From Sorghum bicolor (Eukaryota; Streptophyta; Magnoliopsida; Poales; Poaceae), in assembly GCF_000003195.3 (NCBI RefSeq), contig NC_012875.2, forward strand, positions 20,305,977 to 20,369,976: a stretch of 64,000 nucleotides of DNA, in the 5' to 3' direction. Position 1 is the first letter of the stretch. Each line of letters starts with the position of its first letter. Under the pieces are notes generated by a model, which was not told the origin of the DNA, did not search any database, and worked only from the letters and a program-made list of their open reading frames with translations. This document shows positions 5,207 through 55,060 of this stretch, piece after piece. The position numbers and the translations under genes were made by a program.

Positions 5207-5207
5207 A

Positions 5208-9059: not shown

Positions 9060-9061
9060 GC

Positions 9062-14580: not shown

Positions 14581-14631
14581 CTATCCACAAAGTCCAAAGG
14601 TCGGCCAACCGTTTTCCACTGAAAATGGGGT

Positions 14632-15449: not shown

Positions 15450-15886
15450 TGATTGATGACAACCTCGAGTATGAAAAGAGTTGAGGTTTTTAAAGAGACT
15501 TGGTTTCAATAAGCATGTTACAATAAGAACAAAAAGGATTAGTCATGCTTATATCAACCAAGTCCAATACCCTGCATCCAAATATGTGAGTGGTATACGA
15601 CAGGATATAAACATAAGGCTCATAAGTACATCTGAGTAAAACGCGGAAGCAAAGGTAATATGAGCCAAAACACATGACATTAAGATATCACATAAAGCAC
15701 AAGTCATGTCTCACAACCAAAGTATCTCACACAAGTGCAATGCATAGAAGTAAACGTGATGCATGATAAGTAGCACACATGAAAAGTATCTCAAAAGAAT
15801 AAACACCTAAACACCCTCTCTAGCTCCCCCTAACTCCTAACTCTCTCATACGCCTCTCTCCCCCTTTGGCATCAAGCGCCAAAAAC
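15450..15886 (-). other. Spacer between the extra ORF and the purine tract
   Basis: AT-rich 3' untranslated part of the SIRE-type element. It has only a 61-codon minus-strand frame (15490-15675) with no recognisable motif. The 3' half, just downstream of the ORF, is rich in CTCTCCCC-type strings. No gene seen. Confidence 0.6.
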
Positions 15887-22498: not shown

Positions 22499-23239
22499 CA
22501 CACGTAATCTACTAGTTCCATTAGGTGCGTCCAAATTGATTTCTTAACATATGGTACGTGCCATGCAAATTGTGCAACTATCTTGCATCAAGATTAGCAC
22601 TATATCTGAACAGACCAAATCAAGCCTCCACTTGAGCCTCTTCAACTACCAGTACCATCGGATGCGTCTAAAATGGTCTCTTAGCCTATGGTGCATTAGG
22701 CGTAAACCGTGCACATATCTTCTACCAAAACTAACACTATCTCTAAACAATCCGAAGCAAGATTCCATATGACACACATCATCAAGGAGTTATATCTGGT
22801 GTGTCCTAATTGATTTCTGACCAAATCGTATGTTCCATGCAAATCGTGCACCTATCTTGCATCAAGATCAGCACTAACTCTAAACAGACCGAACCGAGCC
22901 TCCACTTAAGCCTCTTCACCTAGGAGTACCAATAGGTGCTTCCAAAATGGTTTCTTAAACTTTGGTGCATTAGGCGCAAACCGTGCACATATCTTGCAGC
23001 GAAACTAATACTGTCTCTAAGCACACCAAAGCGAGATTCCATATGACACACGTCATGAAGGAGTTCTATCAGGTGTGTCCAAATTAATTTCTAAGCATAT
23101 GGTACGTTCCATGCATACCGTGCATCTAACTTGCATCAAGATTAGCACTATCTCCAAACAGATCAAACCGAGCTTCCACTTGACCCTCTTCACCGAAGTA
23201 CCAAAAGGTACTTCCAAAATAGTTCTTAGACTATGGTGC
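22499..23239. repeat. Centromere-type satellite, block 1 (about 5.4 monomers)
   Basis: Alternating A and B monomers of about 137 bp. A-type monomers contain CATCAAGATTAGCACTATCT; B-type contain GGTGCATTAGGCGCAAACC. Diagnostic variants in order: A2, B2, an A3/A4 hybrid (about 22790-22925, marking loss of two monomers), B4, A5 and the start of B5. The block ends at the insertion point of the next element, whose TSD GGTGC is 23235-23239. Confidence 0.9.
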
Positions 23240-23540
23240 TGTAGCACCCGGTTTGAAGAACAAAACCAGGTTCACACCATATGTGAGCCCAGGAAGTCAA
23301 ATCTCATATATAGCCACAAATAGGGGTAATATCAATAGACAATGCTTATATATAATGAACTTAGTATAAAAGATATAACCTTAGATAGCAAACAGCGGAA
23401 AGACACTCCGTTCTTCAGGCGAAAGCTCCAAATCCACAGGGACAACTGACTGGTTGAGCACAAGCCTAAACTCTTCTCCAAACTTGCAATCTGGTACCCA
23501 TCCGAGATTTTTATCCAAATAAAATGTAAAGGCAAGCGTA

Positions 23541-23555
23541 AGTACATCTCGTACT
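23541..23555. promoter_or_regulatory. Short palindrome in the LTR
   Basis: AGTAC, 5-base loop, GTACT; the right LTR copy is at 30910-30924. It resembles the longer CTGAGTAC/GTACTCAG palindrome of the LARD-like and Tekay-type LTRs and lies at a comparable position, about 300 bp from the LTR 3' end. Confidence 0.4.
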
Positions 23556-25129
23556 CAGCAAGAATAACATAGGGTTCATGAGGCTCAAAGGCTAGACACT
23601 AGTTGAACTGCACGTAGCTTTTAGTTGTCACAATTTTAGCATAAGAGTAGCATCAAGTTGTCAAGTTCCATAGTGAACTCATGATCAAGTAAAGTGAATA
23701 AAAAATAGCATAAACAACATATTATCAATAACACCATTAATGATTTGCCATTAGTGATCATTTATTCTGTATTGGTCCAAGGCCGCTCGTGACCGTGAGC
23801 ACGGCTGATATATCAGTTTTACACTCTGCAGAGGTTGTACACTTTCACTGTGAGTCGTGATTTACCCTTTCGCCCGAGGTCACGAGTCTCTTAACCCCCT
23901 TCCTAGGGAGGTCGGTAGGGTTCACTATGAAGCCTTTCAAAGGTTTGTCTAACAAGTTAGGGCCGCTTGGTTTCATTAGTCAGTCCATGTGATTCACCCG
24001 CAGGAATCCACGGTCTGCTATTCCCCATTTGCGCCACACGGGTAACCTCTAACAAGCTAGAAAAGGTCCCCATACTGAGCTAAAGCCAGAGCCATGTAGC
24101 CCTCACAGTTGTACTGTATGTCCCGGATGGTCAGATACAGATAAGTCCTTATGGAGAGAAACTAGAGCACCATAAGATAGCCCAATGCTCCAGCCCTCTT
24201 TTCCAAAGTTGCTAAAATGTCATCTTTTAATGTTTATTGCATATTCCATTAATCAAATTACAAGATCATGGTTTAGTGGAGCACTAGCATAAGCTACCCA
24301 ATGCAAAATCATAGGTGACAAGGTATAAGATCAATACTAGGAAATCCTTAGCAAAGAGACACATGCAATATGAATTGTGTGATTAAAGTTATTAGGAAAC
24401 AAGGATGATCCCATGCTATACTTGCCTTAAAACTCAGATCCTTCTTTTAGTTCCAAACTTTCCACAAACTGCTTCTTGATCACCACGTAAAAGCTCACCG
24501 ACTAAACTCTGTCATCACATCAACAACAATCATCCAGAGGCAAACATACAAAGCAAACAAACCTATAATTAGAACAATACACCAACAGTAGAAAATAAAG
24601 ATGAAAAGTTTATCAAACAAATCTACATCGCACTACGATCACACAGACGTAAAGATCACGAAAATCGGAGCTATAACGAAGAAGTTTTGATTTAAATAAG
24701 ATTTCCTTTAATAAAATAATAGATTAAATCTAAGTTCAGATTTAAAAAGTTGGAAGCATGTATAACAGAGCTACTAATCTATAGATTACACAAAAACAAA
24801 TCTAACGAAATGTGAACGGATCAAAACAGAGTTAAAACGAAGAATATATGAATTTTCTAAGATTTTCTTTAGAAAAACAATTAATTAATTTGAGTCACGG
24901 AATGAAAAAGTTTCAAACTGAGAAAATAGTGTTACTAACATGTAGATCTTTTGAATACAAAACCAACACAATTTGAACGAGTCAAAACGGAATTAAGATG
25001 AATATTTTATGAATAAAACAAATCCAGTGGCAATTTGGTAATTTGCTGAAAATGTATTTTTGAATAAAACCAGCACGGAGTACGTTTTTAAACTGTGAAA
25101 GCGTAATTTCCAGGTGTGTTTTGGACGGT

Positions 25130-25990
25130 GGGTTAGATCTTTAAAAAGTAGGGGGGCTATTTTGCAAAACGTGCGGCCGAAACGGTATCTTCCATCTGGA
25201 ACCGTTGGATCGGGGATGGACGACTGGAATTAGATTAGAGAGGGGAGGGGGAGGTTGGCCGGCCGGAGCTAGGGACGGCGGCGCCATGGCCGAGATGACC
25301 GTAGTGGTTCAAACTGGCGACACAGAGCAGTAGAGCGCAATCTAAAAGCACGGGGTCGCTCAGGAGCTCAGTGCGCACTCACGTGAGGCAAAAATCGGGG
25401 CGGAGCGAAGCCGGCTAGCGCTCCCGACGGCGAGAGGCGGACGGCGGCCCTGCAGGGAATCCGGTGAGGGTTAGCTACGTGTAGAAAGCACGAAAACGCG
25501 AAACGAGAGCTTTGGCGACTTCGCAAGAGAGAAACGAGGCTTGACCCGGAGCACACGGGGGAAAAAACACGACGCAACAGAGAATTGAGCTCAGCGTGGA
25601 TCTTGGCGGCGCTGCGGCTTGGCTAGGGCTGGGAATCGCGCTAAGATTGGGGGTAGCGGGTTGCGGCGGAGCGGAGGCCGCTATTTAAAGCCTCCTCGGC
25701 GTGCGAGGCAAGCCAGCCGCAGGGATCGCGCGTGGCCGGTGCGAAATCTCCACCGATTCCAGCTCGGTTACGAGGTGGGAGATGGATCCGACAGGTGGGC
25801 CCCACCTGGCAGTGACACGGGGCGTGGGCTAGCTCTGTCAGCGACCGCAGCGAAGAGGAGGGCGAGCGGCTCGCTGGGCTGCTCAGCATGGGCCGGGAGC
25901 TGGGCCGCGTAGAGAAGAAATAAGGAATGGGGGGAAAAAGAAAGCAGGCTGCGGGGGAAGGGGGGAACTGGGCCGAGCCCAAGAGCAGCG
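25130..25990. other. GC-rich island in the LTR, possible promoter region
   Basis: A CpG-rich stretch 0.3-1.1 kb from the LTR 5' end on the minus strand, repeated at about 32450-33320. A TATA-like string (CTTTAAATA on the minus strand, 25682-25690; copy at 33011-33019) lies inside it and would direct minus-strand transcription. Frames such as 25619-25912 are by-products of GC richness and differ between the two LTR copies. Confidence 0.4.
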
Positions 25991-26277
25991 ATGGAGAGAG
26001 TAAAACCTTTTCCTTTTTATTTCCTATTTCTCTTTTCTTTTAAAACAAACCTATTTCAAAACATTTTCAAAACCAAATTTAAATCCCTTTTCAACTTTTA
26101 GCCAAAACCACTCATCACAATAAATCAAATGCAGAGGCATGCATGCTCAAACAAGTTGTTAACTCCTATGGTATATTTTAATAAAAATATTATTTTTACT
26201 ATGTTTTATGAGCAAAAAAATAAACAATTAAAACCATTTCCCCTATTTTGGAAAATTGCAAATTTTGGGGTGTTACA

Positions 26278-26316
26278 ATTCTACCCCCCTTAAAATGAAT
26301 CTCGTCCTCGAGATTC
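26278..26316 (-). promoter_or_regulatory. Polypurine tract and adjoining stem-loop
   Basis: The minus strand carries TCATTTTAAGGGGGGTAG (26281-26298), three bases before the LTR start. It overlaps by two bases a perfect stem GAATCTCG (26297-26304) / CGAGATTC (26309-26316) with loop TCCT. The same stem with a 3-base loop abuts the purine tract of the LARD-like and Tekay-type elements. Confidence 0.65.
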
Positions 26317-26324
26317 GTTGGGTG

Positions 26325-26950
26325 CTTACTCCAACCTAGGTGGGTATGCTTTTCTTAGATCCTCTTCTCTATTACAAACAGCCTCCTCTTCGGTGCACTG
26401 ATTCCACTAGACTTTGTACATCCTGACAATCCAACTCCCGGTAACCCTTTCTGTTGTTTCCAACATTCTTACCAGGTACTCTTGGTATGTGAAATCTGAT
26501 TTAACAGTCAGTTCTTCTAACGACATCTGCTCTTATGGCACATGCAAGTACTTCTTAAGTTGAGGCACATGGAAGACATCATATACTCCTTCTGAACTTT
26601 CAGGTAGCTCTATTTGGTAAGCCACTTCGTTCCATATTTCTTACATCTTGAAAGGCTCGACATATCTTGGTGCTAACTTTCCTTTCATATTGAACCTCCA
26701 CACACTTCTCTTAGGTGACATCTCCAAATAACGTAGTTTCCCCCTTCAGATCTAATTCTCTTCTCAGATGTCAACATAACTCTTATGTCGAGACTGTGCC
26801 ACCCTCAAATTATCTCTGATCATTCTCAATTGCTGCTCTGCATCACTTAGAATCTCTAGCCCAACACTTGTGTTCTCCCGTTTGATTCCAAATCAACAGG
26901 GTTCTACACTTACATCCATACAAGCTTTCAAAAGGCTCCCACTCAAGGCT
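26325..26950 (-). pseudogene. Relic of Gypsy integrase C-terminus and chromodomain
   Basis: Translated on the minus strand with frame changes, three pieces match the pol C-terminus of the Tekay-type element at 39356-40270. Near 26880-26950 is a Glu-Pro-Phe-Glu-Ser-Leu-Tyr-Gly stretch like the integrase segment after the catalytic core. Near 26660-26720 is Gly-Lys-Leu-Ala-Pro-Arg-Tyr-Val, and near 26560-26590 Val-Phe-His-Val-Pro-Gln-Leu-Lys-Lys. Near 26330-26450 is a chromodomain-like end with Tyr-Lys-Val, a TAG stop and a Glu-Glu-Glu-Ala run. Stops and frameshifts rule out function. It shows the element descends from a chromodomain Gypsy. Confidence 0.75.
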
Positions 26951-29655
26951 CTTCTACTAACTGGTGTTCTAAGAAAACTTTGCAGACGGTGAACTCTTTG
27001 TACCATACTGCAATACACAAGCTCTCCATACATCCTACAAATTCTGATTAGTTCTTTTAATCTGCGTAATAGATTTGATCAGAAACTATCTTCTTAGGGA
27101 CCCTTTGCAAACACACTACTTTTCTTAGCTATCTCTTTCAACTTCCCATCCTATAATTGATCCCTCATAATACCAATTTCATAACATTGATGACTATACT
27201 CAGGTTAAGTCGCTCCACTCTTACACATAGCTTCTGAGTCTTCTAACTTAACTCTTAATTAATCTTGCAGTCCCTCTTGTTCCCAAGTGAGTAATTAGTA
27301 GAGCTCATTTGACAGTACTAGTGACATCACTCCAGTTCAACACTCAACTCCTCAAACCTTGGTGTTATTTGAACTCCTCTAGCACACTCTTTATGCTCTG
27401 AGCATTCACAAAAAAATTTTCTCCTTCAAGTGATAGCATTTTTCCCAGTCATAACTCTTGATTCACTCAAATCCATCGACAATGTGACCAGCTCAAATCC
27501 AACTTCCTAAAGATGCCCTTTAGATTCTTACGTTCTACACAGATATCACTCCTTAGACCCAAGAAGGCAGTATCTCCATGCTCCACTATGGATACCTCCA
27601 CATCACACGTCAGTTAATCCAACCCACTTAGTTGACTTATGCACAAGCCACTACTTTTCTTGTATGGAGCACATCTAAGATCTCGATGGAATAGAAGAAC
27701 TCTATTTGACAATCTTCATAACACTTTCAGTGAACCACTGATAGAATCTTATCATTCCAAGTCAATCTCTTAGTCACTCCTATGTCAAGATCACACTGGC
27801 TCTAGCAAACCTATCATAGCCTCTTGCCATATCTATAAAACTCTGAGTCTCCTTCACTTTCCTTTGGTGGTTTCCAACTCTTGTATCTTTAACTGTCTTA
27901 AGTCCGTCATTAAAGATGACATATCCTAGACGACAACTAGAACATACTGGTCGTGCTCTCTTTAGCAATAAAGCCTTTTGAGTCTCCGTAGAATCAATAG
28001 TAGATGTAGCTTATCCACTTCCTAAGTTGTCAAGTGACCAATTTCACTAACTTGAGCCAGGATAGATGATTATAACCATGGGATACCTTCAGTGACAACT
28101 TCTCTCTTCATGATAAATTGAAAGGGCATTAACCAATAATGTCAAGGTACTACCCCCCTTAAAATGAGATAGGTCGGGGGACAGTATGGACTAGCTCTCA
28201 TATTCTGTTTAGATGCTACACATCATATAGTCTTTCAAATTCACTGTACCAAGTCTCATGGTCTGGAGTTGGTTCTATCACTAAGTTCCAACTATTGGTA
28301 CCTCTATCATAGTTGAATTGCTTTGCTCTCGCCTCCCATGTATAACTTCGTACACTTTGGTGTCACCTGATTCTCATAAGCACCACTTCCAAGCTATGAG
28401 TACTGGCAATGACCTATATCTCCATCCATATTAGCACACTTCAATGGAACTATTTCTTGCATCAAAACCCAAATTTACCAAACACTTGAGGTCCTTATCG
28501 ATGATCCAACATTAACCGATACTTCTTCTTGTACCTCCTTTGATAAGACTACCCCCCTTAGTAAAGGTAACTAGGGGTTTAAATGGGTAGTTTAGTCCAC
28601 CTCTCAAGTGTGTTTCTTATCATAAGATCTTCTACTACCGAGGAGAAACTTATGTGCACTGATGTGTACAAGAAATCTGAATTTCCTCACAACACGAGAA
28701 ACACCAGCGCAGTAAAAAAGACATAAATCCTTTTTTGTTAATCCAATAAGGTCTTAGCTTATACTGTTAGAAACCTTATCAAAATCCCTACAACTTTCAT
28801 GTAGAAGGCTTCCTTAGTTTCTGTCTTTAAACCCAGGTAAAATAGCCCAACATGATATCCATCCCAACAATGTCTCAGCATCGATACAGCAACTTACAGA
28901 AGTCATATCTCGAGCTACTTAGATCATACAGGGACGAGTCTTACATGGTTAAAAAGCTTATGAAGTCCTCCACATCTTCTGTATATCACACTTTTCCAGA
29001 TTCTGATGCTAAGTTGGCTGAAAAGTAGGAGCTAACTAGAACTGTCCAGATTTTGAACTGTGCAGCAACAGCAAATTGTAGGTGTCATAACTCAAGTTCT
29101 GTTAATCCGATAAAGTTGCAGTTTGCATCGTTGGAAAGCTTATCAAATTATCTACAACTTTATTATAGAACCTTTTCCCAAATTCCGGAGTTACTTTTGT
29201 CTAAATCGGTAGACAGCTAAACTGGTCCAGATTCCTGACAGCTCCGCGGTACCAACTTGTGATTTTTGTAATTCCCAAACCACAACAGCTATGTGGGTGA
29301 TTCTTGAGGTCGGAGAAGGATCTTGAAGTCTACTATTACCCAGAATTTTCACAACATTTTATGGTCCTCCAAGAATAGGGATTTTGAACTAAAGAAGATA
29401 AGTTGCCCCCTAAAAGACAGGACAGAGAAACAAGAGAAACTAAAACCCATATATTTATTCAACTAATCCTTATACCTTAGACCTATAAACTAAATGAAAT
29501 TGTGGAGAAACCCACAAGATCATTGCACTCATTACAAAAATCCAACTCAAACATAAGCACTAAAACAAACCAACCAAACATTAAAGGTTCACAAAGCACA
29601 CATATAAGTCTAAACTAAACTTTTGCTACTAACGTTTATTACAAAAGGGGACTTC
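26951..29655 (-). other. Non-coding interior of the GGTGC-flanked element
   Basis: About 2.7 kb with no frame over about 65 codons and no recognisable pol motif. It may hold unrecognisable pol remains near 26950-27200. It contains two extra copies of the purine-tract core (28150-28167 and 28549-28560) and, at about 28700-29350, modules of the GGAAAGCTTATNAAATT type that also occur in the LTRs of the other Gypsy elements. Confidence 0.6.
28150..28167 (-). repeat. Internal copy of the polypurine tract
   Basis: Eighteen bases (minus: TCATTTTAAGGGGGGTAG) identical to the terminal tract at 26281-26298 but 1.87 kb inside the element. A shorter copy (12 bases) is at 28549-28560. It could be a central purine tract giving a second priming site, or a relic of rearrangement; no LTR start follows it. 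Confidence 0.55.
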
Positions 29656-30414
29656 CTACTTCTTAAACACGGTGTGACTGCAGCGGCATCCAGGGTAGCA
29701 TCTCTTGCGTGGAGTTAAGTGAGGTATGTCCTCCACCTCATTGATCTTAGGTAATCCACCACGACTTCTCCACTCATCAATCTCAGCAAGGGCTTCTTCA
29801 TAGTGTTGCCTTACTTCTGCCAATTCAAGTTGACTATCTTCTAGCTTTTGATGCATGACTTGGATAGTCAAAGCCATCTCCTTTAGTTGTTCATTCTGCT
29901 CCAAGTAGGGGTCAGCCATCACACATTGCAAAGTGCCTGGTGGACGACGAGGAAGATACTTTTGTTTGCCATTCTTCCTCTCTTCGTAGTGCTTTCCATG
30001 ATATGCCAGAAGAGCTTGATGGGCAGCATCAGATATGCTAGCATGCTTACTGAAACGGTCACTGAGAGACGAATGAATGGATTCCACCACACGTGAACCA
30101 GTAAACTCATTCCACCTTGTGATGTGTGCTTCTGTGCTCCAGTGGCTCTCATACTTGGGATGAGTCCACTTAGTGCACTTATATTCCACCTTGGCTTGCT
30201 GTTCAGGATAGTGATCTTGTAGTATACGCACAAGCCGAGGGTGAAAGAAAACTTCACCACTAAAGGATGTGGTAACATACTCCTTTCGCCAACAAATATG
30301 TCTTGATGGGACAGGGCGAGCTTCTTCATACTCTGGTTCCGTTAAGCCATAGAAACCCCGAGTTAAGCATGGTCTTCCAGAGTTGCTGCGAGCAATCTTT
30401 TCGTTACGAACCAT
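29656..30414 (-). CDS. Intact 252-aa ORF of unknown function in gag position
   Basis: An uninterrupted minus-strand frame whose Met (30414) lies about 180 bp after the primer binding site, where gag normally starts. Nothing matches Gag, a CCHC knuckle, protease or RT. Residues about 1-110 are mixed with many aromatic and basic residues. A Ser/Ala/His-rich part follows at about 110-140. From about 168 to 215 there is a strongly charged heptad-like stretch rich in Glu, Gln and Leu, very likely a coiled coil. The C-terminus has Cys-Tyr-Pro-Gly-Cys-Arg-Cys. From memory, similar hypothetical proteins with a Ser-Asp-Ala-Ala-His-Gln-Ala-Leu core and a coiled coil are common in grass genomes, so this is probably a family carried by non-autonomous elements. 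A structural or packaging role is inference. That it stays open while the pol relic is ruined suggests recent or continuing selection. Confidence 0.65.
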   Translation of the reverse strand: MVRNEKIARSNSGRPCLTRGFYGLTEPEYEEARPVPSRHICWRKEYVTTSFSGEVFFHPRLVRILQDHYPEQQAKVEYKCTKWTHPKYESHWSTEAHITRWNEFTGSRVVESIHSSLSDRFSKHASISDAAHQALLAYHGKHYEERKNGKQKYLPRRPPGTLQCVMADPYLEQNEQLKEMALTIQVMHQKLEDSQLELAEVRQHYEEALAEIDEWRSRGGLPKINEVEDIPHLTPRKRCYPGCRCSHTVFKK

Positions 30415-30592
30415 CTATGGAATTAGACCAAGAGGGAGTTAGAATAGAAGCAATAATTTTACAACCGAATTAGGTGGCAAAAGCATAAGAATTTTAGCAA
30501 ATAGCAAGGGTGAGATAGTAAGCATGAATGTAGTGAAGCAAAGATGACTAAAATGACCATTACTAACTAGGCTTGCGTCCTACAGTCAGCAT

Positions 30593-30605
30593 TGCTCTGA
30601 TATCA
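30593..30605 (-). other. Primer binding site (tRNA-iMet type)
   Basis: Minus strand TGATATCAGAGCA, one base from the common plant PBS TGGTATCAGAGCA, three bases inside the 5' LTR that starts at 30609. Confidence 0.8.
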
Positions 30606-30608
30606 CTT

Positions 30609-33607
30609 TGTAGCACCCGGTTTTAAGAACAAAACCAGATTCACACCATATGTGAGCCCAGGAAGTCAAATCTCACATATAGCCACAAATAGGGGTAATA
30701 TCAATAGACAATGCTTATATATAACGAACTTAGTATAAAAGATATAACCTTAGATAGCAAACAGCGGAAAGACACTCCGTTCTTCAGGAGAAAGCTCCAA
30801 ATCCACATGGACAACTGACTGGTTGAGCACAAGCCTAAACTCTTCTCCAAACTTGCAATCTGGTACCCATCCGAGATTTTTATCCAAATAAAATGTAAAG
30901 GCAAGCGTAAGTACATCTCGTACTCAGCAAGAATAACATAGGGTTCATGAGGCTCAAAGGCTAGACACTAGTTGAACTGCACGTAGCTTTTAGTTGTCAC
31001 AATTTTAGCATAAGAGTAGCATCAAGTTGTCAAGTTCCATAGTGAACTCATGATCAAGTAAAGTGAATAAAAAATAGCATAAACAACATATTATCAATAA
31101 CACCATTAATGATTTGCCATTAGTGATCATTTATTCTGTATTGGTCCAAGGCCGCTCGTGACCGTGAGCACGGCTGATATATCAGTTTTACACTCTGCAG
31201 AGGTTGTACACTTTCACTGTGAGTCGTGATTTACCCTTTCGCCCGAGGTCACGAGTCTCTTAACCCCCTTCCTAGGGAGGTCGGCAGGGTTCACTATGAA
31301 GCCTTTCAAAGGTTCGTCTAACAAGTTAGGGCCGCTTGGTTTCATTAGTCAGTCCATGTGATTCACCCGCAGGAATCCACGGTCTGCTATTCCCCATTTG
31401 CGCCACATGGGTAACCTCTAACAAACTAGAAAAGGTCCTCATACTGAGCTAAAGCCAGAGCCATGTAGCCCTCACAGTTGTACTGTATGTCCCGGATGGT
31501 CAGATACAGATAAGTCCTTATGAAGAGAAACTAGAGCACCATAAGATAGCCCAATGCTCCAGCCCTCTTTTCCAAAGTTGCTAAAATGTCATCTTTTAAT
31601 GTTTATTGCATATTTCATTAATCAAATTACAAGATCATGGTTTAGTGGAGCACTAGCATAAGCTACCCAATGCAAAACCATAGGTGACAAGGTATAAGAT
31701 CAATACTAGGAAATCCTTAGCAAAGAGACACATGCAATATGAATTGTGTGATTAAAGTTATTAGGAAACAAGGATGATCCCATGCTATACTTTCCTTAAA
31801 CTCAGATCCTTCTTTTAGTTCCAAACTTTCCATAAACTGCTTCTTGATCACCACGTAAAAGCTCACCGACTAAACTCAGTCATCACATCAACAACAATCA
31901 TCCAGAGGCAAACATACAAAGCAAGCAAACCTATAATTGGAACAATACACCAATAGTAGAAAATAAAAATGAAAATTTTATAAAACAAATCTACATCGCA
32001 CTACGATCACACAGACGTAAAGATCACGAAAATCGGAGCTATAACGAAGAAGTTATGATTTAAATAAGATTTCCTTTAATAAAATAATAAAATAATAGAT
32101 TAAATCTAAGATCAGATTTAAAAAGTTGGAAGCATGTATAACAGAGCTATTAATCTATAGATTATGCAAAAACGAATCTAACGAAATTTGAACGGATCAA
32201 AACGTAGTTAAAACGAAGAATATATGAATTTTCTAAGATTTTCTTTAGAAAAACAATTAATTAATTTTGGTCATGGAATTAAAAAGTTTCAAACTGAGAA
32301 CGAGTCAAAATGGAATTAAGATGAATATTTTATGAATAAAACAAATCCAGTGGCAATTTGGTAATTTGCTGAAAACGTATTTTTTAATAAAACCAGCACG
32401 AAGTACGTTTTTATACTGTGAAAGCGTAATTTCCACATGCGTTTTGGAAGGCGGGTTAGATCTTTAAAAAGTAGGGGGGCTATTTTGCAAAATGTGCAGC
32501 CGAAACGGTATCTTCCATCTGGAACCGTTGGATCGGGGATGGACGGCTGGAATTAGATTAGAGAGGGGAGGGGGAGATTGGACGGCCGGTGCTGGGGAAA
32601 ATCGCGGCGGCGCCATGGCCGAGATAACCAGAGTGCTTCAAACTGGCGATACAGAGCAGTAGAGCGCAAACTAAAAGCACAGGGTCGCTCAGGAGGTCAG
32701 TGCGCACTCACCTGAGGCAAAAATCGGGGCGGAGCGATGCCGGCTAGTGCTCCCGACGCCGAGAGGCGGACGGCGGCCCTACAGGAAATCCGGCGAGGGT
32801 TAGCTACGTGTAGAAAGCACGAAAACGCGAAACGAGAGCTTCGACGACTTCGCAAGAGAGAAACGAGGCTCGGCCCGGAGCTCACGGGGGCAAAAACACG
32901 ACGCAACGGAGAATTGAGCTCGGCGTGGATCTTGGCGGCGCTGCGGCTTGGCTAGGGCTGGGAATCGCGCTAAGATTGGGGGTAGGGGGTTGCGGCGGAG
33001 CGGAGGCTGCTATTTAAAGCCTCCTCGGCGTGCGAGGCAAGCCAGCCGCGGGGATCGCGCGTGGCCGGTGCGAAATCTCCACCGAGTCCAGCTCGGTTAC
33101 GAGGTGGGAGATGGATCCGACAGGTGGGCCCCACCTGGGAGTGACACGGGGCGTGGGCCAGCTTTGTCAGCGACCGGAGCGGAGAGGAGGGCGCGCGGCT
33201 CGCTGGGCTGCTCAGCGTTGGCCGGGAGCTGGGCCGCGTAGAGAAGAAAGAAGGAAGGGGGAAAAAAGAAAGCAGGCCGCGGGGGGGGGGGGGGGAACTA
33301 GGCCGAGCCCAAGAGCAGCGATGGAGAGAGTAAAACCTTTTCCTTTTTATTTCCTGTTTCTCTTTTCTTTTAAAACAAACCTATTTCAAAACATTTTCAA
33401 AACCAAATTTAAATGCCTTTTCAACTTTTAGCCCAAACCACTCATCACAATAAATCAAATACACAGGCATGCATGCTCAAACAAGTTGTTAACTCCTATG
33501 GTATATTTAAATAAAAATATTATTTTTACTATGTTTAATGAGCACAAAAATACACAATTAAAACCATTTCCCCTATTTTGGAAAATTGCAAATTTTGGGG
33601 TGTTACA
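30609..33607 (-). repeat. 5' LTR of the GGTGC-flanked element (2999 bp)
   Basis: Runs TGTAGCACCC to GGGGTGTTACA on the plus strand. It differs from the left LTR by a 53-bp deletion near 32299, a small ATAAAATA duplication near 32090 and a 15-base G run at 33281-33295. GC island at about 32450-33320. No gene. Confidence 0.9.
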
Positions 33608-39313: not shown

Positions 39314-39349
39314 GCCCTCCCCCCTTACAAAAATCTCGTCCCGAGATTT
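39314..39349 (-). promoter_or_regulatory. Polypurine tract and stem-loop of the Tekay-type element
   Basis: A purine run on the minus strand (39314-39327) abuts the LTR. Then AAATCTCG (39331-39338), loop TCC, CGAGATTT (39342-39349). The stem lies just downstream of the pol stop codon (39356-39358), so it is not constrained by coding. The outer pair is A-T, where the LARD-like element has G-C. Confidence 0.7.
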
Positions 39350-39355
39350 GAAAGC

Positions 39356-40315: not shown

Positions 40316-40441
40316 TCAAGCAACCTTGGTCAAGCGATCTACAATCACCCAGATGGAGTCGTAACCCTTAACAGAAGTTGGGAGTCCACTGATGAAATCC
40401 ATGCTGACTTCTTCCCATTTCCAACCAGAAATTGACAAGGG

Positions 40442-41515: not shown

Positions 41516-41569
41516 GAAAGGTACTTTCTTCAGCCAAAACTCGCATTTGCTAAACTTGGCATAAAGCTA

Positions 41570-41818
41570 ATGTTCACGCAAACGCGACAACACTACACGC
41601 AGATGCTCTGCATGCTCCTCTTCATTGCAGGAATATACCAAGATATCATCAATAAAGACCACCACAAACTTGTCCAATTCGGGCATGAACACCGAATTCA
41701 TAAGATACATGAAATGAGCAGGTGCATTCGTCAGACCGAAGGACATGACAAGGTACTCATACAGCCTATACCTTGTCGAGAAAGCTGTCTTAGGTACATC
41801 TTCAGGACGGATCTTGAT
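41570..41818 (-). pseudogene. Segment 2: RT palm with catalytic Asp-Asp
   Basis: Lies between the stops at 41821 and 41569, in frame. It holds the RT palm with Phe-Ile-Asp-Asp at 41656-41645. It has no Met near its start and is cut off from the rest of RT by stops on both sides. Confidence 0.85.
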
Positions 41819-43606: not shown

Positions 43607-43611
43607 CCTCT

Positions 43612-46600
43612 GAGAACCGTGCCCAACGGTTAGTCCTCATCCCCAGCGGGATGGAGACAGGTCTTGCAGAAACCGTCATAGAAGATGTCATCTGCAACAG
43701 GTGGGAATAAACCCTGAGTACGAGAATGTACTCAGCTAGACTTACCCGTCTAGAAAAACATAAAAGACACCAAGGATCATGCAAGGCTAGATGTCAAGTG
43801 GAGCTGGTTGACTCACCTTTTTGCCAAAAGCTTAACTTACAACTAAATTACTTTGAGAGCATCATTTTTATTTATCATCAGCCTACCACTAGATTAGCAC
43901 CTGTACTACAACACATCACTTGATTATTACAAACAATAATAACCATATCAAATTCATCATATGTTCCTCTTGCTATCATCATTATCATGAACCAAGTTCA
44001 TTAATGAATGCTACGTTTGTGGCTGCGCTGTCAAGTTCTCACTAACCGGGAGAGACGGCGATTCGAATCGAATTCCTATCCAGCTGCAGGGTTATTCCTA
44101 GCACTCACCCAAGCATCCCCTGCCGGAGAGCCAATGGGTCACCTTTGGTACAACTCAGGAATCGCGGCTCCGATCAGTGCCGCACTCCCAGGGCTACCAC
44201 TCCGCCAGGGAGGTCAGGAATTTTAACTCACCTGCCTTTGGACTTACGCCAATGGTCCCCCGCACACCGCACTTCCTCCGGTAGTGCGCACTTTATACTT
44301 GCCGGTCTTCCGGCCTGAGTCATACTACTCGGCTTCGCGGTCGGAACGAGTTATCCGGCCAACTAAGTGTTAGGCATGCGTTCAACATGACAAGAGGACG
44401 TACAACGATCGGTCCTTAGCTGCCACAGACGGAGTTACTACAAACTTGCAAAACTCTGCCCGGCTTAAGTCAAATTAATCAGGTTCCATCCACGATAGCA
44501 CATATAGACCATCGTGATCCGACATAACCCTATATCGCGCAGGTGACAGGATATCACCCGACTTCTACCGATTAAACAAGGCTAAGCTGCTACTCGATCC
44601 TAACTCTACAACCAGGGTGTGGAGAGTTATCTGGACAAGGATAGAGTAGAATGCAGCAAAAGTTTCATCACAACTCCTATACGTAATGCATCAATAGATA
44701 GAACATATTAAGTGAACTTTCGAAAATAAGGGAGACTTAGAATGCTCCGAGGCTTGCCTTTCACGAACGACGTCGGCTCGTGATTCGGGCACTCAACTTC
44801 TTCTTCTGGCTCCTCGGGTCCGGCTTGCTGGACCTCCACCTCCTGGTTGCCTTCCTGGCCTTCGGGGTTCGCTTGGAGCTCGAAGGAAACGGTCACGTCC
44901 GGTGCACCTATTGCATGCTCGAACAATAAGAAGATGCACATGCTAAAGATGAATGCTTAATAACATAAGCAACTCACTGGACACTCATTTATGGAGCAAA
45001 AGTTATACAAGCTCACACAAGTAAACAAGTTAGCTTAGCCCAAAACCTATCATGATACCAAATCAGCAATCAACACAAAACAGGAGTAATCTGGTAAATA
45101 AATCATAACTAATGATAGACAGATCCAACAAACACAAATAAAGACATTCTGGAAAGCTTATGAAATTGTCTACAAATCATCTTTAAACATCACAGCATGA
45201 TTCAAACATTAAACCAGTTAATTAAACAAAGTTCCAGGTTCTGTCCCAGAAAAACAGAGAGCACCTATTTCTGGAACCCAACTTAGAACAGCCATAACTT
45301 TTAAACTACTGGACCAAATGATTCCGAATTTAAACCACAGCTAGTTCAATAAGTTTACTACAACTTTGATTTAGACAAGCTTCCCAGAACAGCAAGTTAT
45401 CATCAAGCAACAGTTAAATTACTCCCTTGCTGTCCAGAACAGCTTTTTAACCCACTAATTAATTATTTAATGACATGACCAAGACACAAACCATGCCAAC
45501 CACATGGCTTATGACCACAAGAATATTATAATACAACCAGAACACCAGATGGAAACTTCCAAACATTTACTTAACAAGGCATTTATTAATTAATCCTAAA
45601 TAAGAGCATAATTACAAGATACTAGTCACAATGCTCAGAAAAATCTACAAAAATTACAGAAGCACAAGGATAGCATCAAAGCGTTGCCATAAAAATTTCA
45701 GAGCAATTGCACATACCAAATTAAAGATATACATTTAACATGTAACTAGGTGCTTATTTCATAAATTGGAAAACATGACTTATATGGTGTCAAACAACAG
45801 ATTTCAGATTATTTATATCTTAGGAATACCATAAACATGTTTACTACCAAAGTAGAACACCAGCATAAGCACCAATTATTTTGTATGATTTAATTAAAGA
45901 AACAAGCCACATTTCAATCATAAAATCTATATCAAATCTGCAGTACTCCAAAAATCATGACATATTTATCAAAGCATTCTAATACCATACAGAGACTACC
46001 ATAAACTTTTCAGAGCAAACTAAGTAGTATAACAAGAGATATGAATTTATCCATGAATAACAAGATTAAATCCTTAATAAATATTTTTCCAGAAAACATG
46101 GTTCATTTTATATTTTTATTAAAAACTAGCCATCTCAAGGAATACCACAAAATTTGTTTCACAATTTTTGGATCTCAGAAGCAGGAGATATGATTTTTAC
46201 AAAAACAGCTCAAACCCTAGTTTAAACAAAGGAGAAAGAGAGACTGACAGAGGGGACCCGCGAGTCAACGGACCCCACCTGCCAGCGACCCGAAAGCAGA
46301 GGCGCGGATTGACCGCCGGAGATCTCATCGACGGCGAGGTCTCGGCGCTGGCCAAAGGCACCATCGTGCTCCCCACATCATTCTGCATCGAGCGGTACCC
46401 AAAACCCTAACTCTACCGGACTCTAGGCACCTCGCCCTCGCGAATTGCGGCACGACGGTGGTGCGCGGCCGACCGCCGGCGTCTCTGGTCGGAGACAGAG
46501 CAGAAGAGAATGCGGACGAGCAACAGCAAGATCTAGCGAAGCTTTTGGGACAAGAATGAGGAAGAATGGTGGGCTACAGAGCCCTGGCCACGACGCCGGT

Positions 46601-47674
46601 GACCATGGCGGAACTCCGACGAGGTAAGCTCGCGTCGGAGAAGGCAATGCGGGCTCACTGAGGCTCGGCAATCGCAGCCAACTTGACGACGGTGGAGTGG
46701 AGAGGCTGGCGGAGCGCTGGGCGGAGTTGCTTGACCGAAGACAAGGAGACACGCGCGCGCGAGCTCGCCGAAGCAACAGCGGCGACGCGGAAACGACGAC
46801 GCACGCGAGAGAGAGGACACCGGGAGAGGAATGGCGCTGTCCACGCGACCGGGGGCGCCGTGGCGAGCTGAAGGACGCGTCGCGGACTGACGTGCGGGAC
46901 CAACGGCGACGTACGGACGCCACGAGTCCAGACACGCGGCAACACCGGCGAGCTCCCCCTGCCTGACGGCGGCTCCATTCAGTCCCCAAACCGACTGAAA
47001 CCCGATTTTGCCCGACGATTAACTCCCTAACCACTCGATAATTTTGCTGGCTAATTGCTCCATGCTGGAGAGCTACATGAGCACTCCAACATTGCTTACT
47101 AGATCAAAGCTTGATTCGGCCTAGAATTAAAACTGGAAGATGAACAATACCCCCTCGAGCAAACTGCAGAGATTCTAGACTTAGAAAATTTTCTAAGTGT
47201 TGGAGACAGCCCCAAATTTGCCTTGTGGGTCACTTTTGAGCTATTTGTGATCATTTTCATGAGATGGCCATAAAACAACTTTTGTTCCTTATAAAATATG
47301 CTACAACTTTGCTGTAGGAAGTTTTGACATGCAAACATTTATGAAACCCTTTTTAAAAGTCTAAGAAAAAGAGGTTTCTAGGGCCTATTTGGATAAGTAT
47401 GACTTCAAAGCATAATTTGGAGGAGTGATCAACATGAACATTGTTCCCAAAGTCAAGTTAAGCATAGATAAACTAATTACCAAGGCATTAAGCACAAACA
47501 CAAGCATGGTTCACTCAAACATAAGCATAGGAAGCCTATTTTAAGCAATTTAAAACACATTTTTGCATAGAATGACATGGCTCAAGAGAGATGATGATCA
47601 TAATATGCTTTGAGTAGATGATGATGCTTATGCTATGCACATGATTGATGCAACCATAACACTGGGGTGTTACA
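43612..47674 (-). repeat. 5' LTR of the Tekay-type element (3' end deleted)
   Basis: Matches 35296-39313. Homology begins at GAGAACCG (43612). The missing ~350 bp of LTR plus the primer site and leader were removed by the deletion that joins the LTR to gag. It has the palindrome at 43714-43735, the GC island at about 46220-47000, and 43 bp (about 46560-46602) absent from the other LTR. Confidence 0.9.
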
Positions 47675-47679
47675 CAATA

Positions 47680-50600
47680 GGTGCATCCAAAATGTTTTCT
47701 TAGACTATTGTGCATTAGGCACAAACCATGCACATATCTTGCAACGAAACTAACAATGTTTCTAAACAGATCAAAGAGAGATTCCATATGACACACGTCA
47801 TCAAAGAGTTCCATCGGGTGCATCCAAATTGATTTCCAAGCATATAGTATGTTCCATGCAAACTGTGCACCTATCTTGCATCAAGATTATCACTATCTCC
47901 AAATAGACTGAACCGAGCTTCCACTTGAGCCTGTTCATCTAGGAGTACAAACAGGTGCGTCAAAAATGGTTTCTCAGACTACGGTGCATTAGACACAAAC
48001 TATGCACCTATCTTGCACCGAAACTAACATTGTCTCCAAACAGACCGAAGCGAGATTCCATATGACACACGTCATCTAGGAGTTCCATTGGGTGCGTCCA
48101 AATTGATTTCTTAACATATGGTACGTTCCATGCAAACTTTGCAACTATCTTGCATCAAGATTAGCACTTTATGTGAACAGACCAAATCGAGCCTCCACTT
48201 GAGCATCTTCAACTACGAGTACCATCGGATGCGTCTAAAAATGGTTTCTTAGCCTATGGTGCATTAGGCGTAAACCGTGCACATATCTTCTACCAAAACA
48301 AACACTATCTCTAAACGAACCGAAGCAAGATTCCATATGACACACATCATCAAGGACTTATATCAGGTGTGTCCTAATTGATTTCTGACCATATCGTATG
48401 TTCTATGCAAACCGTGCATCTATCTTGCATCAAGATTAGCACTATCTCCAAACAGACCAAACTGAGGTTTCACTTGAGCCCCTTGACCTAGGAGTACCAT
48501 CAGGTGCGTCCAAAATGGTTTCTTATCCTATGGTGCATTAGGTGCAACCGTGCACCTGTCTTGCACCGAAACTAACACTGTCTCTAAATGGACCGAAGTG
48601 AGATTCCATATGACACATGTCATCTAAGAGTTCTATCTGGTGCATCCAAATTGATTTCTGATCATATGGTATGTTCCATGCAAATCGTGCACCTATGTTG
48701 AATCAAGATTAGCACTATCTCGAAATAGACCGAACCGAGCCTCCACTTGAGCCTCTTCACCTAGGAGTACCAATAGGTGCTTCCAAAAAGGTTTCTTAGA
48801 CTTTGGTGCATTAGGAGCAAACGGTGCACATATCTTGCACCGAAACTAATAGTGTCTCTAAGCACACAAAAGCGAGATTCCATATGACACACGTCATGAA
48901 GGAGTTCTATCGGGTGTGTCCAAATTAATTTCTAAGCATATGGTACGTTCCATGTAGACCGTGCATCTATCTTGCATCAAGATTAGCACTATGTCCAAAT
49001 AGATCAAACCAAGCTTCCACTTGACCCTCTTCACCGAAGTACCAAAAGGTACTTCCAAAATGGTTTCTTAGACTATGGTGCATTAGGCGCAAACCATGCA
49101 AATATATTGCATCAAGATTAGTACTATATCTGAACAAACCAAATCGAGCCTCCACTAGAGCCTCTTCAACTACGAGTACCATCGGATGCGTCTAAAATGG
49201 TTTCTTAGCCTATGGTGCATTAGGCGTAAACCGTGCACATATCTTCTACCAAAACTAACTCTATCTCTAAACGAACCGAAGCAAGATTCCATATGACACA
49301 CATCATTAAGGACGTATATCAGGTGCGTCCTAATTGATTTCTGACCATATCGTATGTTCCATGCAAACTGTGCATCTATCTTGCATCAAGATTAGCACTA
49401 TCTCCAAACAGACCAAACTGAGCTTTCACTTAAGCCCCTTGACCTAGGAGTACCATCGGGTGCGTCCAAAATGGTTTCTTATCCTATGGTGCATTAGGTG
49501 CAAACCGTGCACCTATCTTGCACCGAAACTAACACTGTCTCTAAACGGACCGAAGTGTGATTCCATATGACACATGTCATCTAGGAGTTCCATACGGTGC
49601 ATCCAAATTGATTTCTAAGCATATGGTATGTTCCATGCAAATCGTGCACCTATCTTGCATCAAGATTAGCACTATCTCTAAACAGACCGAACCGAGCCTC
49701 CACTTGAGCCTCTTCACCTAGGAGTACCAACAGGTGCTTCCAAAATGGTTTTTTAGACTTTGGTGCATTAGGCGCAAACCGTGCACATATCTTGCACCGA
49801 AACTAATACTATCTCTAAGCACACCAAAGCGAGATTCCATATGACACACATCATGAAGGAGTTCTATTGGGTGTGTCCAAATTAATTTCTAAGCATATGG
49901 TACGTTCCATGCAGACCGTGCATCTATCTTGCATCAAGATTAGCACTATCTCTAAACAGATCAAACCAAGCTTCACCTTGACCCTCTTCACCGAAGTACC
50001 AATAGGTGCTTCCAAAATGGTTTCTTAGACTATGGTACATTAGGCGCAAACCATGCACCAATCTTGCACCGAAACTAACATTGTTTCTAAACAGACCAAA
50101 GAGAGATTCCATATGACAAACGTCATCAAGGAGTTCCATCGGGTGCATCCAAATTGATTTCCAAGCATATGGTATGTTCCATGCAAACCGTGGACCTATC
50201 TTGCATCAAGATTAGCACTATCTCCAAACAGACTGAACCGAGCTTCCACTTGAGCCTCTTCATCTAGGAGTACAAACAGGTGCGTCAAAAATGGGTTCTT
50301 AGACTATGGTGCATTAGACACAAACTATGCACCTATCTTGCACCGAAACTAATATTATCTCCAAACAGTCCGAAGCGAGATTCCATATGACACACATCAT
50401 CTAGGAGTTCCATTGGGTGCGTCCAAATTGATTTCTTAACATATGGTACGTTCCGTGCAAACAGTGCAACTATCTTGCATCAAGATTAGCACTATATCTG
50501 AATAGACCAAATCGAGCCTCCACTTGAGCCTCTTCAACTACGAGTACCATCAGATGCGTCTAAAATGGTTTCTTAGTGTATGGTCCATTAGGCGTAAACT

Positions 50601-51369
50601 GTGCACATATCTTCTACCAAAACTAACACTATCTCTAAACGAACCAAAGCAAGATTCCATATGACACACATCATCAAGGAGTTGTATCAGGTGCATCCTA
50701 ATTGATTTCTGACCATATCGTATGTTCCATGCAAACCGTGCATCTATCTTGCATCAAGATTAGCACTATCTCCAAACAGACCAAACTGAGCTTCCACTTG
50801 AGCCCCTTCACCTAGGAGTACCATCGGGTGCGTCCAAAATGGTTTCTTATCCTATGGTGCATTAGGTGCAAACCGTGCACCTATCTTGCACCGAAATTAA
50901 CACTGTCTCTAAACGGACCGAAGTGAGATTCCATATGACACATGTCATCTAGGAGTTCCATCCGGTGCATCCAAATTGATTTCTAAGCATATGGTATGTT
51001 CCATGCAAATCGTGCACCTATCTTGCATCAAGATTAGCACTATCTCTAAACAGACCGAACCGAGCCTCCACTTGAGCCTCTTCACCTAGGAGTACCAATA
51101 GTTGCTTCCAAAATGGTTTCCTAGACTTTGGTGCATTAGGCGCAAGCCGTGCACATATCTTGCACCGAAACTAATACTGTCTCTAAGCACACGAAAGCGA
51201 GATTCCATATGACACACATCATGAAGGAGTTCTATCGAGTGTGTCCAAATTAATTTCTAAGCATATGGTACGTTCCATGCAGACCGTGCATCTATCTTGC
51301 ATCAAGATTAGCACTATCTCCAAATAGATCAAACCGAGCTTCCACTTAACCCTCTTCACTGAAGTACCA
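47680..51369. repeat. Satellite super-repeat copy 1 (about 3.69 kb, 27 monomers)
   Basis: Contains two 10-monomer units and one 7-monomer unit. It shares rare variants with 51370-55060 at a lag of about 3.69 kb: ACCAAAACAAACAC at about 48293 and 51985, AAGGACTTATATCA at about 48352 and 52044, and CACCTATGTTGAATCAAG at about 48690 and 52381. Confidence 0.75.
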
Positions 51370-54300
51370 ATAGGTGCTTCCAAAATATTTTCTTAGACTA
51401 TGGTGCATTAGGCGCAAACCATGCACATATCTTGTACCAAAACTAACACTGTTTCTAAACAGACCAAAGAGAGATTCCATATGACACACGTCATCAAAGA
51501 GTTCCATCGCGTGCATCCAAATTGATTTCCAAGCATATAGTATGTTCCATGCAAACCGTGCACCTATCTTGCATCAAGATTATCACTATCTCCAAATAGA
51601 CTGAACCGAGCTTCCACTTGAGCCTCTTCATCTAGGAGTACAAACAGGTGCGTCAAAAATGGTTTCTTAGACTAAGGTGCATTAGGCACAAACTATGCAC
51701 CAATCTTGCGCCAAAACTAACATTGTCTCCAAACAGACCGAAGCGAGATTCCATATGACACACGTCATCTAAGAGTTCCATTGGGTGCGTCCAAATTGAT
51801 TTCTTAACATATGGTACGTTCCGTGCAAACTGTGCAACTATCTTGCATCAAGATTAGCACTATATCTGAACAAACCAAATCGAGCCTCCACTTGAGCATC
51901 TTCAACTACGAGTACCATCAGATGCGTCTAAAATGGTTTCTTAGCCTATGGTGCATTAGGCGTAAACCGTCTACATATCTTCTACCAAAACAAACACTAT
52001 CTCTAAACGAATCGAAGCAAGATTCCATTGACACACATCATCAAGGACTTATATCAAGTGCGTCCTAATTGATTTCAGAGCATATCGTATGTTCCATGCA
52101 AACCGTGCATCTATCTTGCATCAAGATTAGCATTATCTCCAAAGAGACCAAACTGAGGTTTCACTTGATCCCCTTGACCTAGGAGTACCATCAGGTGCGT
52201 CCAAAATGGTTTCTTATCCTATGGTGCATTAGGTGCAACCGCGCACCTGTCTTGCACCGAAACTAACACTGTCTCTAAATGGACCGAAGTGAGATTCCAT
52301 ATGACACATGTCATCTAGGAGTTCCATCTGGTGCATCCAAATTGATTTCTGAGCATATGGTATGTTCCATGCAAATCGTGCACCTATGTTGAATCAAGAT
52401 TAGCACTATCTCTAAATAGACCGAACCGAGCCTCCACTTGAGCCACTTCACCTAGGAGTACCAATAGGTGCTTCCAAAATGGTTTCTTAGACTTTGGTGC
52501 ATTAGGCGCAAACCGTGCACATATCTTGCACCGAAACTAATAGTGTCTCTAAGCACACCAAAGCGACATTCCATATGACACACGTCATGAAGGAGTTCTA
52601 TTGGGTGTGTCCAAATTAATTTCTAAGCATATGGTACGTTCCATGTAGACCGTGCATCTATCTTGCATCAATATTAGCACTATCTCCAAACAGATCAAAC
52701 CGAGCTTCCACTTGACCCTCTTCATCGAAGTACCAAAAGGTACTTCCATAATGGCTTCTTAGACTATGGTGCATTAGCGCAAACCATGCAACTATCTTGC
52801 ATCAAGATTAGCACTATATCTAAACAGACCAAATCGAGCCTCCACTTGAGCCTCTTCAACTACGAGTACCATCGGATGCGTCTAAAATGGTTTCTTAGCC
52901 TATGGTGCATTAGGCGTAAACGGTGCACATATCTTCTACCAAAACTAACACTATCCTAAACGAACCGAAGAAAGATTCCATATGACACACATCATCAAGG
53001 AGTTATATCAGGTGCGTCCTAATTGATTTCTGACCATATCGTATGTTCCATGCCAACTGTGAATCTATCTTGCATCAAGATTAGCACTATCTCCAAACAG
53101 ACCAAACTGAGCTTTCACTTAGGCCCCTTGACCTAGGAGTACCATCGGGTGCGTCCAAAATGGTTTCTTATCCTATGGTGCATTAGGTGCAAACCGTGCA
53201 CCTATCTTGCACCGAAACTAACACTGTCTCTAAACGGACCGAAGTGAGATTCCATATGACACATGTCATCTAGGAGTTCCATCCGGTGCATCCAAATTGA
53301 TTTCTAAGCATATGGTATGTTCCATGCAAATCGTGCACCTATCTTGCATCAAGATTAGCACTATCTCTAAACAGACCGAACCGAGCCTCCACTTGATCGT
53401 GTTCACCTAGGAGTACGAACAGGTGCTTCCAAAATGGTTTCTTAGACTTTGGTGCATTAGGCGCAAACCGTGCACATATCTTGTAGCGAAACTAATACTG
53501 TCTCTAGGTACACCAAAGCGAGATTCCGTATGACACGTCATGAAGGAGTTCTATCGGGTGTGTCCAAATTAATTTCTAAGCATATGGTACATTCCATGCA
53601 GACCGTGCGACTATCTTGCATCAAGATTAGCACTATCTCCAAACAGATCAAACCGAGCTTCCACTTGACCCTCTTCACTAAAGTACCAAAAGGTACTTCC
53701 AAAATGGTTTCTTAGACTATGCTGCATTAGGCGCAAACTATACACATATCTTGCACCGAAACTAACACTATTTTTAAACAGAACAAAGAGAGATTCCATA
53801 TGACACACGTCATCAACATGTTCCATCGGGTACATCCAAATTGATTTCTAAGCAAATGGTATGTTCCATGCAAACCGTGCACCTATCTTGCATCAAGATT
53901 AGAACTATCTCCAAACAGACCGAACCGAGCTTCCACATGAGCCTCTTCATCTAGGAGTACAAACAGGAGCGTCAAAAATGGTTTCTTAGACTATGGTGCA
54001 TTAGGCACAAACTATGCACCAATCTTGCGCCACAACTAACATTGTCTCCAAACAGACCGAAGCGAGATTCCATATGACACACGTCATCTAGGAGTTCCAT
54101 TAGGTATGTCCAAATTAATTTCTTAACATATGGTTCGTTCCATGCAAACTGTGCAACTATCTTGCATCAAGATTAGCACTATATCTCAACAGACCAAATC
54201 GAGCCTCCACTTGAGCCTCTTCAACTATGAGTATCATCGGATGCGTCTAAAATGGTTTCCTAGGCTATGGTGCATTAGGCGTAAACCGTGCACATATCTT

Positions 54301-55060
54301 CTACCAAAACTAACACTATCTCTAAACGAACCGAAGCAAGATTCCATATGACAAACATCATCAAGGAGTTATATCAGGTGCGTCCTAATTGATTTCTGAC
54401 CATACCGTATGTTCCATGCAAACCATGCATCTATCTTGCATCATGATAAGCACTATCTCCAAACAGACCAAACTAAGCTTTCACTTGAGCCCCTTGACCT
54501 AGGAGTACCATCGGGTGCGTCCAAAATGGTTTCTTATCCTATGGTGCATTAGGTGCAAACCGTGCACCTATCTTGCACCGAAACTAACATTGTCTCTAAA
54601 CGGACCGAAGTGAGATTCCATATGACACATGTCATCTAGGAGTTCCATCTGGTGCATCCAAATTGATTTCTGAGCATATGGTATGTTCCATGCAAATCGT
54701 GCACCTATCTTGCATCAAGATTAGCACTATCTCTAAACAGACCGAACCGAGCCTCCACTTGATCGTGTTCACCTAGGAGTACGAACAGGTGCTTCCAAAA
54801 TGGTTTCTTAGACTTTGGTGCATTAGGCGCAAACCATGCACATATCTTGCACCGAAACTAATACTGTCTCTAAGCACACCAAAGCGAGATTCCATATGAC
54901 ACACGTTATGAAGGAGTTCCATCGGGTGTGTCCAAATTAATTTCTAAGCATATTGTACGTTCCATGCAGACCGTGCATCTATCTTGCATCAAGATTAGCA
55001 CTATCTCCAAACAGATCAAACCGAGCTTCCACTTGACCCTCTTCACCGAAGTACCAACAG
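51370..55060. repeat. Satellite super-repeat copy 2 (about 3.69 kb, 27 monomers)
   Basis: Second copy of the 27-monomer block. The A5 variant (GGTGTGTCCAAATTAATTTC) occurs at 51230, 52596, 53549 and 54917, spacings 1366, 953 and 1368, parallel to 1368, 957, 1368 from 34801 onward (joined across the insertion). The boundary with copy 1 is approximate. Confidence 0.75.

Follow-up and report, generated by a model that had tools for sequence, protein, structure and literature searches.

A ten-monomer higher-order repeat with nested compound orders in a 137-bp satellite array of Sorghum bicolor

We analyzed a stretch of 64,000 nucleotides of the Sorghum bicolor genome (contig NC_012875.2, positions 20,305,977 to 20,369,976; G000:C6:20305977-20369976 in our labels), here called the window, and found that a grass centromere-type satellite array within it is organized as a ten-monomer higher-order repeat (HOR), as a preliminary description of this DNA had proposed. 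Two monomer types, A and B, alternate along the array, and ten diverged positions recur in the order B5 A1 B1 A2 B2 A3 B3 A4 B4 A5 as a 1,368-bp cycle from window position 23208 to approximately 55881. This region contains five full ten-monomer units (10-mers), two seven-monomer units (7-mers), and one partial 10-mer, with full units of 10, 10, 7, 10, 10, 7, and 10 monomers following one another along the array. The two features that define a HOR are both present: the monomers keep a fixed order with higher identity between units, and the units are reiterated head to tail.

We compared monomers across the five aligned 10-mers. Monomers at the same position had an identity of 0.947 (100 pairs), monomers of the same type at other positions 0.841 (400 pairs), and A against B monomers 0.675 (500 pairs). 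The same-position value exceeded all of 5,000 shuffles that preserved A/B alternation (mean, 0.859; maximum, 0.879). The 10-mer copies in the window were 93 to 96% alike, with Kimura two-parameter (K2P) distances of 0.037 to 0.069. A simpler view is that the array is an A-B dimer array only and that the ten positions are chance similarity. The high identity at lag 2 and a crude lag-10 mean close to it are what this view would expect (0.825 and 0.836, respectively, with 0.836 also at lag 17, in the core at 47681 to 56292), but the lag-10 mean is barely above lag 2 there because the 7-mers shift the phase. The shuffle maximum, together with the finding that 96% of confident monomer steps elsewhere in the genome obey the cycle (see below), already refutes the dimer-only view and leaves it practically no probability. 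The ten-monomer cycle passed the lag and clustering check that had been suggested for it once phase shifts were allowed, but clustering resolved nine classes instead of ten: A1 and A4 co-clustered at thresholds of 0.12, 0.10, and 0.085; their consensus sequences are 93% alike, and they are distinguished by position and diagnostic bases.

The nine diagnostic words listed in the preliminary description occur in the order it gave, though some words are absent from some copies, as with the A1 word in the copies that begin at 53693 and 55061. All eight A5 sites that it listed exist, but the true starts lie 16 bases to the right: CAAATTAATTTC, the A5 word, begins at 23080, 34817, 48921, 49878, 51246, 52612, 53565, and 54933, and it is additionally present at 54111 and 58732. 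The spacings between the eight sites agree with those reported, at 1364 and 1368 bases after removal of the inserted elements and one target duplication each, followed by 957, 1368, 1366, 953, and 1368 bases. These correspond to 10 or 7 monomers, as claimed, and the 7-monomer spacings come from a B5/A2 chimera that removes three monomers. The order had been assigned to a region ending at 54920. The order itself is real, but the ten-monomer order reaches approximately 55881 and the satellite ends at 60940; the description, correct about the 10-mer, had also overlooked an A3/A4 hybrid, a 27-monomer order, and an 18-monomer domain.

The satellite array as a whole occupies 22499 to 60940 on the + strand. 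A monomer-profile search of the window with nhmmer found 113 monomers, all on the + strand, from 22525 to 60939. The monomers are mostly 137 bp in length, A and B are 67.5% alike, and the monomers are contiguous once two long terminal repeat (LTR) retrotransposons inside the array (elements 1 and 2) and one target duplication each are removed. The window has no N bases. The most conserved part of all monomers is marked by the best 17-column windows, which begin at columns 43 to 49. A 137-bp tandem monomer in the sorghum genome is the mark of the CEN38/SorSat137 satellite, and the array is probably of this type, an assignment made by monomer length and host. We take pSau3A10 to be the same family. 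An exact satellite word had no matches in the viral and prokaryote contig collections, from which records of the word's own genome may be excluded, and a text search of the literature with six satellite words gave no printed match. The full CENP-B box was absent from both array strands, which held one match to a shortened motif.

All copies lie on the + strand. The array opens with five monomers at 22525 to 23207 in the order A2, B2, A3/A4 hybrid (22799 to 22935, breakpoint columns 30 to 46), B4, and A5, which form an 8-mer variant with its left side cut off. Copy a (23208 to 47680) carries all ten positions from B5 to A5, with B5 split by element 1 and the last base beyond element 2. It is followed by 10-mer copy b (47681 to 49048), 7-mer copy c7 (49049 to 50005), 10-mer copies d (50006 to 51373) and e (51374 to 52739), 7-mer copy f7 (52740 to 53692), and 10-mer copy g (53693 to 55060). 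The 10-mer order stops with partial copy h (B5 A1 B1 A2 B2 A3; 55061 to 55881).

Each 7-mer opens with a full-length chimeric monomer of 136 to 137 bp, which we call K, with B5 sequence on the left and A2 sequence on the right (49049 to 49185 in c7 and 52740 to 52875 in f7). The K junction removes three monomers and disrupts the A/B alternation. Its breakpoint maps to columns 49 to 64 in the first window copy and 49 to 53 in the second, inside the stretch that is most conserved among all monomers.

The units are themselves arranged in a compound repeat of 10+10+7 = 27 monomers (27-mer) of approximately 3.7 kb, with one full copy at 23208 to 50005 and a second at 50006 to 53692, both on the + strand. 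The two copies are 95.8% alike (K2P, 0.040; interval, 0.033 to 0.047). The in-phase pairs a-d (K2P, 0.037) and b-e (0.040) are closer than the four out-of-phase pairs (0.049 to 0.060). Among sites that divide copies a, b, d, and e two against two, 23 join a with d and b with e, whereas 1 joins a with b and 4 join a with e; when copy g was added, b and e still shared most sites (15).

We searched the genome (709,120,108 bases) with the 10-mer and obtained 90 matches, all on contigs C2, C6, and C128, with 13 of 6,546 first-look candidates scored. We take C2 (77,742,459 bases) and C6 (61,277,060 bases) to correspond to chromosomes 2 and 6 of sorghum BTx623 version 3. We then labeled 685 monomers from 12 stretches outside the window, chosen as the best 10-mer matches, with the window-derived classes and counted steps between adjacent + strand monomers when each of the pair reached 90% likeness to one of the ten classes. 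The cycle was present in all 12 stretches, and 442 of 460 confident steps (96%) obeyed it, compared with a mean of 0.19 and a maximum of 0.25 in 200 within-type shuffles. Full 10-mers, 20 in total, occurred in 10 of the 12 stretches. K was found in 6 of the 12, on C2, C6, and the small contig C128, where it accompanies a partial cycle. Recognized by likeness to the window's K, 13 outside copies were called and one fragment was dropped; the remaining 12 of 12 gave breakpoint columns 49 to 53. Identity at lag 10 reached 0.946 in stretch L012, 0.922 in L016, and 0.885 in L014.

The unit is not specific to one chromosome, as both the 10-mer and K lie on C2 and C6 by assembly placement. The 10-mers were 0.9385 identical between C2 and C6 (156 pairs), 0.939 between different blocks of the same chromosome (119 pairs), and 0.949 within a block (25 pairs), a same-block mean that is raised by the near-identical 10-mers of L014. 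In a tree of 25 ten-mers, C2 and C6 copies interleave, with 6 changes required for each label, and window copies b and e cluster with a C2 copy at 97/94. In L014 (G000:C2:36537500-36547499), recent local amplification has left three 10-mers that are near-identical, with one pair 99.9% alike. Strand switches within or at the edges of satellite blocks were seen in L011, L012, L013, L017, L019, and L020, and some of these could be real inversions and some could be errors of the older assembly.

Assembly errors raise a wider concern, that misjoins of repeat-rich contigs in the older reference produced both the compound orders and the two-chromosome distribution as artefacts. According to the available text of PMC11170960, a region of 6.28 Mb surrounding the chromosome 6 centromere is misoriented in BTx623-v3, and 36.25 Mb was newly assembled over v3; it is the assembly that places the blocks on C2. 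Nevertheless, we consider such an artefact very unlikely. The window is free of N, misjoining does not produce the 4 to 7% divergence among the 10-mer and 27-mer copies, elements 1 and 2 each sit within one copy and are flanked by perfect target duplications, and six stretches elsewhere carry the chimera as well.

Beyond the 10-mer order, transition monomers at 55882 to 56701 (+ strand) join it to a second HOR domain at 56702 to 60939 (+ strand). This domain is built on an 18-mer, itself a 6-mer plus a 12-mer, with unit 1 (6+12) at 56702 to 59132 and partial unit 2 at 59133 to 60939; the two are 93.0% alike over 13 monomers (K2P, 0.045). The 18-mer has B5 A1 B1 A2 B2 in common with the 10-mer. 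A genome search with the 18-mer (3 of 5,469 candidates scored) gave matches that all lie on C6, the full-length ones 86 to 91% alike; the search omitted the query's own locus and hence is no measure of the unit's rarity. Three stretches fetched from this search carry other orders. In one of them, L029 (G000:C6:20779900-20788900), identity peaks at lag 14 (0.899 versus 0.829 at lag 2), a further HOR order on C6.

Each of the two retrotransposons inside the array lies within one copy only, is flanked by a perfect target duplication of 5 bp, and breaks into the cycle without shifting its phase. Element 1 (23240 to 33607, no strand assigned) is inserted in a B5 monomer with the target duplication GGTGC and has LTRs of approximately 3.0 kb; the split monomer is whole again after its removal. 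Neither of the two internal reading frames of element 1 that reach 90 amino acids had a Pfam match, and the element therefore looks nonautonomous. Element 2 (34944 to 47674, - strand) is a Ty3/gypsy-type retrotransposon with a chromodomain and the target duplication CAATA. LTR-pair K2P distances are 0.035 for element 1, 0.014 for element 2 (shared LTR part only), and 0.030 for a copia-type element at the left of the array; any absolute dates would have to be inferred. Among the 120 of 527 retrotransposon protein matches listed, those with an organism name had identities of 49 to 59% for Miscanthus floridulus, 38 to 49% for Paspalum notatum, and 39% for Oryza brachyantha. The anatomy supports an order of events in which the 10-mer came first, then the 27-mer, and then the insertions.

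The copia-type element (14495 to 22498; RVT_2 on the - strand; LTRs 97.1% alike) directly adjoins the left end of the array, and the monomer profile finds no satellite to its left within the window. Farther left, window positions 1 to 14344 contain direct repeats of 5.2 kb (1 to 5191 and 9153 to 14344) that are 99.2% identical and are probably the LTRs of a large young retrotransposon truncated by the window edge. Parts of this region resemble the element 2 LTRs (75 to 88%).

The insertions and the divergence among copies also bear on whether the array is an active CENH3-bound centromere core, with the 10-mer as a functional HOR held uniform by ongoing homogenization. According to the accessible text of PMC8407070, the 137-bp satellite alone among satellites interacted with CENH3 nucleosomes in Sorghum bicolor chromatin immunoprecipitation, and the 10-mers of L014 are up to 99.9% alike, as such a core might be expected to show. 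We nevertheless think this reading unlikely: the window copies differ by 4 to 7%, two retrotransposons with LTR distances of 0.035 and 0.014 sit inside the array, and unit-bearing blocks are dispersed over several megabases of C2 and C6. Transitions also cluster at CG and CHG sites, the pattern that methylated heterochromatin would be expected to give. In 23 ten-mers (the 25 minus two near-duplicates), transition frequencies were 0.084 at CG, 0.073 at CHG, and 0.019 at CHH sites, while transversions were similar across the three contexts. The CG/CHG contrast disappeared when only singletons were counted (CHG versus CHH, P = 0.89), and we regard the methylation signature as suggestive only.

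We consider it highly probable that this is a pericentromeric or centromere-edge 137-bp satellite array in which HORs were built stepwise, with the unit on at least two chromosomes and a later slowing of homogenization. An ancestral A-B dimer would have diverged, and five successive dimers would have been amplified together as the 1,368-bp unit, either by out-of-register exchange or by break-induced replication; we infer the repair route. Recombination between B5 and A2, within the most similar monomer stretch, would have deleted three monomers to give the 7-mer, and the 10+10+7 block would then have been copied to give the 27-mer. The 10-mer and K would have spread or been exchanged between chromosomes before or during this growth, because both lie on at least two chromosomes. 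Homogenization would then have slowed locally as copies diverged by 4 to 7% and retrotransposons settled in the array; present turnover here may be low, and any CENH3 loading would be presumptive. HORs are usually explained by nested growth of this kind, through out-of-register recombination. The monomer order, its layers, the shared K breakpoint, and the in-phase insertions are observed features, and the shared breakpoint backs this mechanism here.

Several points weigh against this explanation or parts of it. Crude identity at lag 10 is barely above lag 2 in the core, and pooled over the 12 stretches, whose individual lag profiles are mixed, lag 10 (0.814) falls below lag 2 (0.824). The 12 stretches, chosen as best matches, are silent on other chromosomes, and K copies with other breakpoints could be missed by the way K was recognized. 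The 27-mer has two full copies; copy g, which would be expected to begin another, shows no greater closeness to a (K2P, 0.053) or d (0.064) than to the remaining copies, and these distances lend no support to a third copy of the 27-mer. The interval of the 27-mer distance, 0.033 to 0.047, includes the element 1 LTR distance of 0.035, and because of this overlap the order of events rests on anatomy, not on a clock. Finally, turnover is not over everywhere, because the L014 10-mers are near-identical.

A broader picture is possible, though somewhat less likely than not: chromosomes 2 and 6 may share a "suprachromosomal" satellite family whose ten-monomer unit, with a founder chimera, spread between nonhomologous centromeric regions and then built block-specific 27-mer, 18-mer, and 14-mer-like units by nested growth as in primates. 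It would now persist in relict blocks that retrotransposons have invaded and that extend across several megabases. The stepwise account of the window would in itself give an ordered, datable record of plant centromere satellite growth, from dimer to ten-mer, through a single identifiable out-of-register recombination, to the compound 27-mer, in which the inserted retrotransposons serve to mark time internally. K offers a clean marker of descent, with one breakpoint on two chromosomes that can be traced through sorghum lines and relatives, and makes exchange between nonhomologous centromeres directly testable in telomere-to-telomere assemblies.

HORs are already known in kind from grasses, and what is added here is an explicit account of a ten-position cycle together with 27-mer and 18-mer orders. 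The array is like CEN38/SorSat137/pSau3A10 of Sorghum, Saccharum, and Miscanthus in its 137-bp monomer, A-B dimer, sorghum host, and LTR elements inside the array. The CEN38/SorSat137 literature, in the portions available, describes a sorghum HOR that is an AB dimer (PMC4053949) and, for Miscanthus CEN38, "higher-order repeat units" of unspecified type, with a 3,866-bp cluster (PMC2872872), in contrast to the ten-position, 27-mer, and 18-mer orders reported here. We found no 10-mer HOR of sorghum or Saccharinae in the literature searched, which includes few subscription papers, and the available text of the sorghum telomere-to-telomere paper (PMC11170960) treats satellites and version 3 errors with no HOR analysis seen there.

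The contrast drawn in the preliminary description, that grass satellites are monomeric or dimeric, is outdated, as multi-monomer HORs have been published for Pennisetum, Brachypodium, and switchgrass. As described in the accessible parts of these papers, HOR blocks in Pennisetum CentP contain as many as 24 monomers (PMC12933667), and Brachypodium CentBd and CentBs form HOR arrays (PMC10910784); both are multi-monomer grass centromere HORs like ours, but their monomers of 156 to 157 bp belong, by description, to other satellites, and CentP HORs are described as chromosome specific, whereas one unit lies on at least two chromosomes here. Switchgrass likewise has HORs of several monomers (four to six plus a truncated one) with rearranged members (PMC4053949, as far as its available text goes), but in another satellite and with shortened monomers, whereas the chimera here is of full length, 136 to 137 bp. 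Layered organization of this sort is most familiar in human centromeres. Human alpha-satellite, in the parts of PMC8997354 and PMC12321929 that we draw on, likewise keeps its diverged monomers in a set order and has A/B dimers, suprachromosomal families, variants with whole monomers missing, nested units, units on several chromosomes, and older diverged layers. Unlike in human alpha-satellite, the 10-mers of the window are 93 to 96% alike, not near-identical, retrotransposons invade the array, and there is no full CENP-B box. A relation in sequence is not expected.

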